Part shown: positions 55,826 through 63,594 of the stretch, piece after piece
Layout: each line of letters begins with the position of its first letter
How positions within the stretch are numbered: position 1 is the stretch's first letter
Source: a virus
Reading direction: 5' to 3' (one strand)
Length of the DNA stretch: 64,000 nt
IMG/VR virus record: IMGVR_UViG_3300035703_000009
Coordinates: 143,111-207,110 of that record
Made by a program: the position numbers and the translations under genes
Notes under the pieces: generated by a model
What the model saw: only the letters and a program-made list of their open reading frames with translations
What the model was told of the DNA's origin: nothing
Databases searched by the model: none

Positions 55826-55879
55826 CCCTTAGCTGGCCTGAAGTTTTTTGGTTGCAGTCGAATCATGTATTATTACTAC

Positions 55880-56731
55880 ATGAGAAGGTTAAAGATTGAG
55901 GAAAGGTACACCAATCGCACCCAAGCAGTGAACCTTTACTTTAATGACGTGAGTCACTATCAAAGGGTCTCAGAGTCAGAAGAAATCGAGCTGGCCACAC
56001 GCATTCGGGCCGGCGATTCAAAAGCGCTAGATCGGCTGGTAAAGGCCAACCTGAGATTCGTCATCTCGGTGGCAAAGCAATACACCCAGAACAGCTCAAT
56101 GTTGCTTGATTTTATTTCACAAGGAAACATTGGGCTCATCGAAGCCGCCAAAAAATACGATCCTAGCCTGGGATTTAGGTTCATCACCTATGCAGTGTGG
56201 TTCATTCGCAAGGAGATACTGGCGTATTATGAGTCCTCGACCAAGACTATCAAGCAGCCTATCAAGGTCAAGCTTGACTTGTGCCGAGCCAAAAAGGCTG
56301 AAGAGCGTCTTGAGATGAGGCTTGAACGCAAGCCGACACTCGAAGAGGTTTGCATTGAGCTCGCAGCCACCGGCAAGAAGATGGACGAGGATCGACTAGA
56401 GATCCTTAAGCGCGGTGAGATCGAGCTGACTCCATTCGACTCTAAAAAAAATGAAGATGACTGGCAGCCGGTTGACTGGCTAACGACTGCCGACTCGGAT
56501 TTTGCAGAGTTTGAGCGAAGGCATGGCAGCCAGGTGGAGACTCTATTGAGCACGCTAAATCCTATTGAACGCGAGATAGTAGAAAAACACTTGGGACTGA
56601 CCGACTGTATCAAAATAGGCCTAGTGACCCTGTGCAGGGAGCACGGCAAGTCGAATGAATGGGCCAGGGCAGTCTATCTGCGGGCGATTCGTAAAATGCA
56701 GGTAACTTACAACAAAATGAAAAAGATATGA
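55880..56731 (+). CDS. RpoD-like sigma factor of Bacteroidetes type, 283 aa
   Basis: Starts at the ATG at 55880 (MRRLKIEERYTNR, aligning with the MRQLKI start of Bacteroidetes RpoD); an ATG 15 nt upstream is in frame. Region 2: ELATRIRAGDSKALDRLVKANLRFVISVAKQY and GNIGLIEAAKKYDPSLGFRF (residues ~40-100), ITYAVWFIRKEIL (~101). Regions 3 and 4 follow, the latter (~215-275) weaker and diverged. It would redirect host RNA polymerase. Divergently arranged from the ClpP-like gene. Confidence 0.9.
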   Translation: MRRLKIEERYTNRTQAVNLYFNDVSHYQRVSESEEIELATRIRAGDSKALDRLVKANLRFVISVAKQYTQNSSMLLDFISQGNIGLIEAAKKYDPSLGFRFITYAVWFIRKEILAYYESSTKTIKQPIKVKLDLCRAKKAEERLEMRLERKPTLEEVCIELAATGKKMDEDRLEILKRGEIELTPFDSKKNEDDWQPVDWLTTADSDFAEFERRHGSQVETLLSTLNPIEREIVEKHLGLTDCIKIGLVTLCREHGKSNEWARAVYLRAIRKMQVTYNKMKKI

Positions 56732-58536: not shown

Positions 58537-58545
58537 TTATTTATC
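58537..58545 (-). promoter_or_regulatory. Late-type promoter overlapping the stop of the LRV gene
   Basis: GATAAATAA on the minus strand, beginning in the stop codon of the upstream gene; 19 nt from the ATG at 58517. Confidence 0.55.
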
Positions 58546-58860
58546 GATCCACTCGTCGCCAAGAGCCCAGCTAGTGAGGTCCTCTGGCCAGTTGGGGTGC
58601 AGAGCTGCCTGCTCGGCGACCAGCGGCGAGGAGTCCTGGGCCAGCATGAATAGGATCTCGACTGGGGTGCTAGGGTTGATGGCCAACTGAAAGCGTACAT
58701 GCGCTTTGGGGTCCTGGGCAAGTCGCTTCATGAGCCACAGGGGCAGGCTTGGGTGCTGGGCGGCCTGCCAACGATAGCCGTCCAGCCGTGAGAGGGCCAT
58801 CTCCTCCAGCCCCAGCTCATCGGCGGACTCGTGTAATCTATATCTCTCTATCTTTATCAT
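58537..58860 (-). CDS. Leucine-rich-repeat-variant (LRV) protein, 107 aa
   Basis: Three repeats of about 24 residues: AAQHPSLPLWLMKRLAQDP, FQLAINPSTPVEILFMLAQDS and EQAALHPNWPEDLTSWA, the LRV pattern (N/HPxxPxxxLxxLAxD). Such alpha/3-10 solenoids bind protein. N-terminal KIERYRLHE then SAD could be a targeting peptide. Its stop is inside the next promoter; its start overlaps the 67-aa gene's stop by 1 nt. Confidence 0.7.
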   Translation of the reverse strand: MIKIERYRLHESADELGLEEMALSRLDGYRWQAAQHPSLPLWLMKRLAQDPKAHVRFQLAINPSTPVEILFMLAQDSSPLVAEQAALHPNWPEDLTSWALGDEWIDK

Positions 58861-59063
58861 CAGCTCTTAAGGTACTCTATCTTTTGCGGGCAGAGCTGCA
58901 CCATGCCACTGGCCTCGTACGGAAAGCTGCCGACGCTCTTTTTTATTAGCGCGTCGCGTGGGTCGGGCACCCGTACAGGTGTCAGCGGACCCCTTTGCAC
59001 CGGTTCCTGTGCACTGGTGTCACGGCGGATCAGCTTACCGGAAAATGGGCCTGGCACTATCAT
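58860..59063 (-). CDS. Hypothetical protein, 67 aa
   Basis: Not recognised; Pro/Arg-rich N terminus (PGPFSGKLIRRDTSAQEPVQ) and a C-terminal helix. First gene of the leftward operon, with a late-type motif at 59069-59077 just upstream. GC-rich like the adjoining noncoding region, so coding is somewhat uncertain. Confidence 0.5.
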   Translation of the reverse strand: MIVPGPFSGKLIRRDTSAQEPVQRGPLTPVRVPDPRDALIKKSVGSFPYEASGMVQLCPQKIEYLKS

Positions 59064-59068
59064 CTGGA

Positions 59069-59077
59069 TTATTTATC
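59069..59077 (-). promoter_or_regulatory. Late-type promoter at the left edge of the noncoding region
   Basis: GATAAATAA on the minus strand, 5 nt from the ATG at 59063. Confidence 0.5.
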
Positions 59078-59288
59078 CCAAAAAAGCCAGGAGAAGCACC
59101 AGCGGCCATGGGGGATTTTTCGTCAATGCAGAGGGATCACTTTCTAGGGGAAACCACCTTGACTTAAGTAAACTGACCCCACCGCACTCGCAACGGGTAG
59201 AGGTCTCTTGCACGTAGACATAAGACGATAAGAGATAGACCCAAAAAAAGCCAGAAATCACCCTAGCCGGCCATGGGGGTTTTTTTAC
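59078..59288. repeat. Duplicated GC-rich element (59078-59119 and 59246-59288)
   Basis: Two copies of a ~42-bp element, each beginning CCCAAAAAA(A)GCCAG and ending GGCCATGGGGG plus a T run. The flanking A and T runs with GGCC pairing could make weak terminators on either strand. No gene is seen between them; a GGTCTCT motif lies at 59202. Confidence 0.6.
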
Positions 59289-59394
59289 CCAGGAGAGGGG
59301 ACCAAAAACCAAACGCGCGGGGGCCCCAAGGTTTCCCATGCCAGGGGAGAGAAGGGATTACTGGAGCGGGCTGCCTATAGTTACAAAATTTAAC

Positions 59395-59580
59395 TCGTCT
59401 TCCAGCTAGCCTGTCTAGCTAGCCCTGGATAGCCTGTCCAGCAGGCGCTCCAGGCAGGCCTCCAGGAGGCGCCTGGCAGGCCCTGGCAGTAGCCAGGCAG
59501 GCCCCTGGAGGCTAGCAGTCCAGCAGCCGGGCAGGCTACTGCCCCTGGAGGCACTTTTTTCGGCCTGCAGCTGGCCAAGC
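59395..59580. other. Very GC-rich, self-complementary noncoding tract
   Basis: Dense repetition of CCAGGC, CAGGCC and CTGGAGG words with many short inverted repeats (for example CTAGCTAG and CAGGCGCC...). Composition is unlike the rest of the window. Open frames here look like artefacts of the composition. Lies beside the phased GGTCTCT array. Confidence 0.6.
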
Positions 59581-59602
59581 TTAGGTATTAACCGGTCTAG
59601 CA

Positions 59603-60371
59603 GGTCTCTAAGTTCTCCTTGTTGTGCTAGTCTGCCCGATCAGCTGGGTCTCTACTGGATTCTTGACCAGTCTAAGCTAGTCCAGCTTGGATCCACCCGA
59701 GTCTCTGCTCCCTGTCGAGTAATACCAAGAAGAAGACATGGTTAATCCGACCGGGTCTCTACTCCGCTAATCATAGCTGGCGGTAGGTTATGTGCTCGGC
59801 TACGATCAGGCAAATCGGTCTCTGGTCTAAAAACCTTACTTCCTAGCTGGAATCCGATTAATCCGACCGGGGTCTCTAAGTTCTCCTTGTTGTGCTAGTC
59901 TACCCGATCCGCTGGGTCTCTGCCTAAAGAATCCCAACCCGTTGCCGCTTGAATCCGGAATTACTGTGGGTCTCTGGCCGGTCGCTTGTCCAGGATTAGG
60001 AAAATAGGAAGAATTAAATCTGTGATCAGACCCATTATATCTAGTCTCTGGCCTAAGTAGTTGTCTAAGCTGTGCAGGAATCAGGCCCCTATACTGGATC
60101 TCTGGCCTAAGCAGTTGTCTAATTAGACCAGCCATCTTTTGGGTCTCTGGTGCCAGGCCGGACAGGGGGCGCCAGGGTTAATGCTGGCTCAGAGTAGGGC
60201 CAGAGACCAAAAAGATGTCTTTAGATGTCAGGAAGAAGTCTTAACTAGTTGGCCAGAGACCTTGGTCTAGGCTGGATTTATTGGCTTGGAAAGTTACATA
60301 TCCCGAGCAGAAACTCTTTTGCCTAGAAGAATTAACCGCGGACTGCAGCTGCTAGCCTGAGCATGGTCTCT
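59603..60371. repeat. Phased GGTCTCT array in the noncoding region (origin candidate)
   Basis: GGTCTCT or a one-base variant occurs at 59603, 59647, 59700, 59754, 59817, 59871, 59915, 59969, 60043, 60097, 60142 and 60365 on the plus strand and inverted at 60202 and 60255. Spacings are 44, 53, 54, 63, 54, 44, 54, 74, 54, 45 bp, close to whole helical turns. A 51-bp block (59603-59653) recurs at 59871-59921 with two mismatches. No coding sequence is seen from 59064 to 60514, between divergent gene blocks. Confidence 0.75.
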
Positions 60372-60514
60372 ACAGAGAAGCTTGGTTAAGCTCGCCCTTG
60401 GGTCAAGGACTGGACACAAAAACTCGCGACGCTATAAAAAACTTTTTTGTGCCTTTATTTTAACTCTTGCGCCGGCCTGCCCGTTAAATAAAAATAAAAC
60501 CAGAAATTAACCTA

Positions 60515-60796
60515 ATGAAGAAGCTTATCCTCCTCTCTCTGCTCCTCCTGAGCCTGGCAGCCTGCCGTCCGCTGAGGCTTGCCCTAGATCCAAACCAACA
60601 CCAACGTGTTGTGCTGCTCAAGATGCTGGAACCCGGCTCTCAGGCCGAGTGGCCGATTCGCGACCTAACTGCTAGGGCCGTGCTAGTGCAGACTCTGCAT
60701 GACGGCAAGGAGTTGTGGACTCGAGACTGGTGTGCATGCATCACCGATGACTGGCAGCCAGGAGACACGGTCACTGCGGTGTTATTTCAACGTTGA
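60515..60796 (+). CDS. Small lipoprotein, 93 aa
   Basis: MKKLILLSLLLLSLAAC is a lipoprotein signal peptide with lipobox SLAAC (Cys at residue 17). The mature domain is small and beta-rich with WCACITDDWQPGDTVTAVLF at the end. First gene right of the noncoding region; an AT-rich TAAATAAAAATAAAAC leader precedes it. Probably envelope-located; function unknown. Confidence 0.75.
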   Translation: MKKLILLSLLLLSLAACRPLRLALDPNQHQRVVLLKMLEPGSQAEWPIRDLTARAVLVQTLHDGKELWTRDWCACITDDWQPGDTVTAVLFQR

Positions 60797-60993: not shown

Positions 60994-61140
60994 CTGGGTC
61001 CATGCTAAAAAGATTTGGGCCAGTGCTTGGTGTATCCAGCGATCTCTGGCACCGGAACGTATTCGTCCAGTTAAGATATTATCTATTCCTTGAATCTAGG
61101 ATTCCGGCGGTCTCTGATCAGAGCCGAAAAATAGTTGTCA

Positions 61141-61180
61141 AAAAAGTTTTTAGTTGTCAGAAAATTTTGTTATATTTACT
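61141..61180 (+). promoter_or_regulatory. Early promoter copy 1
   Basis: AAGTTTTTAGTTGTC followed by a spacer and TTTTGTTATATTTAC. Expression of the 56-aa membrane peptide at 61199; leader of about 19 nt. Confidence 0.75.
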
Positions 61181-61579: not shown

Positions 61580-61604
61580 CCAAGATCGTTTACTCCGTAG
61601 TCCA

Positions 61605-63273: not shown

Positions 63274-63594
63274 ATGAGAGAAGAACTTAGCCTGGCCCCA
63301 GTGCCAATCGATGAGCCGTGTGCCCAGCTTGGAGACCCGGACTACCCGACTCGCGCTCGCAAGGAGTGCCGTGCATTCATCAACCAGCTAACTCGCGAGT
63401 TTGGAGAGCCGCCCAGCGGCGCTCGCCTCAAGATTACCCAGAACCCGCATGACTTCGGCACCTACCTCGATGTGGAGGTCCAGTTCGACGACTCCGTAGA
63501 AGAGGCTGCTGAGTGGGCATATAAGGTAGAGGCAAACCTACCCGCCAACTGGGATGAGGCCGCCTTGGCAGAGCTGGCTGAGCCTACTCCGTAG
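63274..63594 (+). CDS. Hypothetical protein, 106 aa
   Basis: Not recognised. Pro-rich start, then an alpha/beta domain (ARLKITQNPHDFGTYLDVEV). GC-rich compared with the AT-rich gene that follows. Confidence 0.6.
   Translation: MREELSLAPVPIDEPCAQLGDPDYPTRARKECRAFINQLTREFGEPPSGARLKITQNPHDFGTYLDVEVQFDDSVEEAAEWAYKVEANLPANWDEAALAELAEPTP

Follow-up and report, generated by a model that had tools for sequence, protein, structure and literature searches.

A cluster of GGTCTCT sites in a 64,000-nucleotide stretch of viral DNA (the window; positions 143,111 to 207,110 of IMG/VR record IMGVR_UViG_3300035703_000009) is probably a set of binding sites for a protein that would act at early promoters as class I activators do; the array, at a gene-block boundary, may serve as an enhancer or master control. 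The window is the final 64 kb of a linear viral contig of 207,110 bp. The array lies in a locus that is conserved in related contigs, the same word recurs in one orientation at quantised distances from the -7 element of many promoters, and in two relatives the word has changed in the same way at the array and at the promoters. From these observations we infer that a protein binds the word and activates transcription, that the array acts on transcription, and that the genes concerned are early.

Between positions 59603 and 60371 of the window, exact GGTCTCT occurs 11 times (9 direct and 2 inverted copies), and three further direct copies carry one mismatch (AGTCTCT at 59700 and 60043, GATCTCT at 60097). 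This agrees with a preliminary description of this DNA, made from the sequence alone, which had counted at least 12 direct and 2 inverted copies. Local Markov models predicted 0.2-0.3 copies of GGTCTCT in 1,140 bp, with a maximum of 3 in 1,000 trials, against the 11 observed. That description had also suggested searching for the motif elsewhere in the genome, and its spread proved to be uneven: the remainder of the 207-kb contig holds 29 dispersed copies at no frequency comparable to that of the array, which is the strongest 7-mer cluster in the contig and is matched in its clustering by no other 7-mer. The main run consists of 11 direct sites on the plus strand (59603-60150), with GTCTCT at 59604, 59648, 59701, 59755, 59818, 59872, 59916, 59970, 60044 and 60143 and ATCTCT at 60098. 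Two inverted copies 53 bp apart follow (60202-60208 and 60255-60261, minus strand), and a direct GGTCTCT at 60365-60371 (plus strand) is the last of the array.

The steps of the array are, in order, 44, 53, 54, 63, 54, 44, 54, 74, 54 and 45 bp. As had been proposed, these distances of 44-74 bp are close to whole helical turns, and a period of 10.75 bp describes them coherently (R 0.91, P ~1e-4 or less with the period free). They are not all independent, because blocks of 51, 24 and 14 bp are duplicated within the array. The copies of the 51-bp block (59603-59653 and 59871-59921, plus strand) lie 268 bp apart and are 96% identical, and those of the 24-bp block lie 54 bp apart. The earlier idea that units had been shuffled at the motif is a fair one, since each of the three duplicated blocks begins or ends at the GGTCTCT word.

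The array lies in noncoding DNA (58861-60514) flanked by a leftward gene on one side and a rightward gene on the other. Its reported position between divergent genes therefore stands, but the assertion that this was the only long noncoding stretch does not, as the cluster of transfer RNA (tRNA) genes at 44.6-50.5 kb is another. Two long contigs chosen from relatives of the terminase (G031 and G007) contain a noncoding locus organised as in the window. It begins with a conserved box of 24 nt, CCTATAGTYACAAAATTTARCTCG (59374-59397, plus strand, 0.2 kb to the left of the array; from box scan and alignment), which marks the locus in relatives. There follow a GC-rich CTAG/CAGG tract (59398-59600), of which the first ~60 nt are kept in relatives according to two alignments, and then GTCTCT sites, which in both contigs are located preferentially in noncoding DNA.

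Nineteen bases of the box were used to scan viral contigs, which like the others compared here are fragments, and eight stretches were retrieved, seven of which were the locus (G031, G050, G051, G052, G053, G054 and G007); G050 is a near copy of G031. A degenerate box scan added G037, in which the box has diverged, giving at least eight related contigs in all, while L256 from the box scan and L316 from the degenerate scan were rejected as chance matches of the box. Conservation in relatives, the absence of which had been expected to speak against a functional array, was thus observed. In the relatives the locus heads a one-strand run of short genes, and its array has 2-13 sites per genome, with steps mostly of 31-32, 51-55, 62-63, 66, 85 and 94 bp. 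Pooled with those of the window, the steps fit 10.44-10.46 bp per turn, a fit that 0 of 20,000 random sets equalled and that also holds without homologous or duplicated steps. Together with the quantised promoter distances of the same word, this supports the earlier suggestion of a nucleoprotein site with its proteins on one helical face.

In the rightward short-gene block of the relatives, TATATTTA(C) occurs with a TTG-like element upstream. An ATG follows TATATTTA after ~31-34 nt, and these are therefore gene promoters. The pattern GTCTCYN{39,69}TATATTTA matched 112 times in seven relatives, on one strand of the genome concerned in 111 of 112 cases (the one exception to the majority strand is G052:52785), and the reversed-pattern control gave 0 matches in the same seven genomes. 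For the pooled set we left out the near-duplicate genome and counted sites within 36-100 bp. This gave 97 promoters with a GTCTCY site, which in 94 was 40-41, 49-52, 59-61 or 70 bp from TATATTTA (R 0.93 at the best period, 10.25). Sites linked to a promoter share its strand, and few inverted copies occur within 100 bp. If transcription starts ~12 nt beyond the first T of TATATTTA, as predicted, the GTCTCY site has its first base at about -52, -62, -72 or -82. The first single site-promoter pair found in G031 had not been accepted as evidence alone, about one being expected by chance.

The promoter consensus is TATATTTAC with an ATTGT-like element upstream, and resembles the Bacteroidota type. 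The primary-sigma promoter of Bacteroides has TAnnTTTG at -7 and TTTG near -33 (PMC7366714), and the final letters of the phage consensus are AC, not the G of TAnnTTTG. The first clear early promoter of the window, identified from the sequence as a match to its own genome's pattern, is at 61154-61179 on the plus strand, with a -33-like TTGTC at 61154-61158 and a -7-like TATATTTAC at 61171-61179. A GGTCTCT is located upstream (61109-61115, plus strand), its GTCTCT starting 61 bp from the -7 element.

These distances bear on two other explanations of the word. The array might be a sink that titrates or stores a regulator, or the regulator might repress early genes through a one-faced complex. 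The locus is retained across genomes whose site numbers range from 2 to 13, and G031 has inverted pairs of the form GTCTCT-N10-AGAGAC, as for a dimeric repressor; the promoter sites, however, lie upstream at distances like those of class I activators and not over the -33 and -7 elements, and we regard a sink or silencer as rather unlikely. Alternatively, the word could act in the transcript as a terminator, processing site or sponge. The GC-rich tract beside the array does fold strongly, but quantisation in steps of ten bp relative to promoters is a signature of the DNA helix. An Rfam search of 56-64 kb gave chance-level matches only, and of 15 pairs in the conserved core just 3 showed any compensatory change, with an unfavourable covariation term. 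The claim for RNA was thus unsupported, and such an element is extremely improbable.

The word has changed together at both kinds of site. In G051 the promoter sites are GTCTCC in 24/28 cases, a form in the minority in other genomes, and GTCTCC is also found at three of the four array sites. In the more distant G037, 15/22 promoters carry [C/G]GCTC at 50, 58-60 or 70 bp, and the locus holds 7 TCGCTC/GGCTC sites, where 0.8 were expected. The array sites and the site of the first promoter share a single 10.5-bp lattice in G052 (R 0.93) and in G031 (R 0.92). Because of the matched word change and this common lattice, one DNA-binding activity would serve array and promoters alike. The matched change suggests that the binding protein is coded by the phage rather than by the host. 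A different role in DNA, as a packaging, partition or methylation mark, could also be considered, as clustered short sites are typical of such elements in phage noncoding DNA and GTCTC is a restriction recognition word. Such a role would predict neither the helical promoter spacing nor the parallel change of the motif at the array and at the promoters of G051 and G037, though, and the terminase gene is 50 kb from the array within the window; we consider it very unlikely.

The preliminary description had offered a replication origin as a candidate function. In this explanation the box, GC-rich tract and array would form the origin, with the RNA primer made from an activator-dependent promoter at its edge, an arrangement known from some T4 origins. 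The locus is conserved, noncoding and at a divergence of transcription, the array is phased and multi-site, and most relatives have an edge promoter. G031 and G052 each have a promoter, probably the first beside the array, that lies unusually far from its ATG (89 and 55 nt, respectively, against 31-34). Cumulative GC skew, however, rises to ~113 kb of the contig, falls to ~165 kb and then climbs once more, levelling off at the array (203 kb), where it is flat and no turn was found. The ~113-kb turn coincides with a dense cluster of TATAGTA/TACTATA repeats (G000:C1:113,100-113,260, equivalent to L221:13,100-13,260), which is possibly a better origin candidate than the array. A similar cluster is present in a relative (G044:C1:132,976-133,190). 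Moreover, the motif occurs at ~95 single-site promoters of the relatives, which is not expected of an initiator site, whose repeats would be confined to the origin and the promoter of the initiator gene. The skew gives an origin at the array no support, the position of the word upstream of putatively early promoters favours transcription control, and we consider such an origin unlikely.

For the activator sites we propose the following model. One sequence-specific DNA-binding protein, perhaps phage-encoded, would recognise GTCTCY in the array and bind the single GTCTCY upstream of many promoters in the rightward, predicted early, block. Its promoter site would always be on one helical face, from which the bound protein could touch the host RNA polymerase, presumably of Bacteroidota type, and assist it much like a class I activator. 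Where the leftward and rightward blocks meet, the sites are multiplied at whole helical turns, and a one-faced nucleoprotein array would form there, ahead of the first early promoter and of the block that follows it; this array may be an enhancer or master control of that block. The virion may carry the binding protein in. A more specific version, which we put forward tentatively and hold to be somewhat less than an even prospect, is that a clade of jumbo phages has its own class-I-type activator for dozens of single-gene early promoters, with an expandable array as enhancer, and that in a sister lineage the specificity of the protein and all of its sites have changed together. If this is true, a whole phage regulon would have been read from sequence alone, with ~95 promoters, a dedicated array and a linked word change. 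The early programme of jumbo phages of Bacteroidota that have not been cultured would become open to testing, class I activation outside Proteobacteria would gain a natural data set, and the hunt for the binding protein would be clearly defined.

Several observations weigh against sites for an activator. The window array is better described by 10.75 than by 10.5 bp, its cumulative phase at 10.5 bp being incoherent (R 0.19), and phasing of the G007 array was tested and was not significant. The contig ends 2.8 kb past the first site-bearing promoter of the window, which is the only one with a site; the window's two other TATATTTAC promoters have no exact site. Unlike in most relatives, the array is ~0.8 kb from the first clear promoter. 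Pfam scans of 20 proteins of the early region of G031 returned a sigma factor and a resolvase, and no obvious activator; one of class I would contact the C-terminal domain of the RNA polymerase alpha subunit. Finally, the box and CTAG-rich core (window 59374-59460) are more conserved than the array, and an activator-site model leaves this box and the GC-rich tract unaccounted for.

The large terminase of the window phage is of T4 type, with nearest isolate relatives that include jumbo phages of Tenacibaculum, and the window contains 35 tRNA genes. The first open reading frame (ORF) to the left of the array encodes an LRV-repeat protein (58537-58860, minus strand; ORF and Pfam evidence). To the right, the first in the ORF list encodes 93 residues with a lipoprotein-like signal peptide (60515-60796, plus strand). 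A Pfam search with this protein gave no match; an early superinfection-exclusion lipoprotein is one possibility. Sigma-70-like proteins are phage-encoded at 55865-56731 of the window and in the early block of a relative (L226:17667-18386). A sigma-factor query for neighbours found none, and a ClpP query found relatives that lack this locus in the same gene order.

Other searches bounded the distribution of the array and regulon. BLAST of the locus against phage isolates gave no match, and the exact sequence of an array unit was not found in viral contigs. Triples of GGTCTCT in viral contigs were mostly coding repeats spaced by multiples of 9 or 18 bp, none of them like the array; many contigs (loci L086-L205) have such coding repeats at 18-bp multiples, readable as hexapeptide repeats of Gly-Ser-Leu type. 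Promoter-linked sites were found in none of four isolates with related terminases (PTm1, pT24, PAU and C48C1). Scanning bacterial genomes with the promoter pattern gave 20 single scattered matches, with no host regulon visible, and no description of such a regulon was found in the open-licence literature searched. We also observed palindromes GTCTCT-N10-AGAGAC (or GGAGAC) in G031 at 63285-63306, 66597-66618 and 68772-68793, some with a central GAATTC; these may be the same recognition word in a form with two half-sites. A second repeated one-strand word, ACTCCGTAG(T), is present at 61592 and 63586 of the window, in 17 copies at 66.5-88.7 kb of G031 and in 16 copies at 78-103 kb of G037. It is often intergenic, just past terminator-like hairpins, and at several places lies ~40 bp before a GTCTCT site.

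Class I activation by CRP in E. coli peaks with sites at -60.5/-61.5 and -71.5/-72.5, and more weakly at -81.5/-82.5, with troughs at -66.5 and -76.5 (PMC6301791). The phage promoters are alike in having one upstream site each, for which activity would be expected only at positions separated by one helical turn. Their sites are upstream, clear of the core promoter, at helical-turn distances and in fixed orientation, as in a class I regulon. In contrast to CRP, the word here is a direct, non-palindromic one of 6-7 bp, in phage genomes, at promoters resembling the Bacteroidota type and with a separate multi-site array. The middle promoters of T4, dependent on MotA and AsiA, resemble the proposed system in that phages with T4-like terminases redirect host RNA polymerase through a short DNA word. 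The MotA box, with its centre near -30, takes the place of the -35 contact, whereas here the word lies 40-70 bp upstream of -7 in several helical registers and a TTG(-33)-like element is kept; this distance and the presence of the -33-like element speak against a MotA-type middle promoter. The phage Mu enhancer and the p4/p6 regions of phi29 are multiple phased sites that form a control complex in a phage genome, and the likeness lies in this phased, multi-site arrangement, but here dozens of promoters each have a single site as well, and no sequence relation was seen, no test for one being made. Origins of the iteron type (lambda O, P4 crr and P1) have noncoding direct repeats spaced by nearly whole helical turns, with iterons usually longer or close-packed. 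Here, promoters are the main home of the word, and GC skew gives an origin no support.
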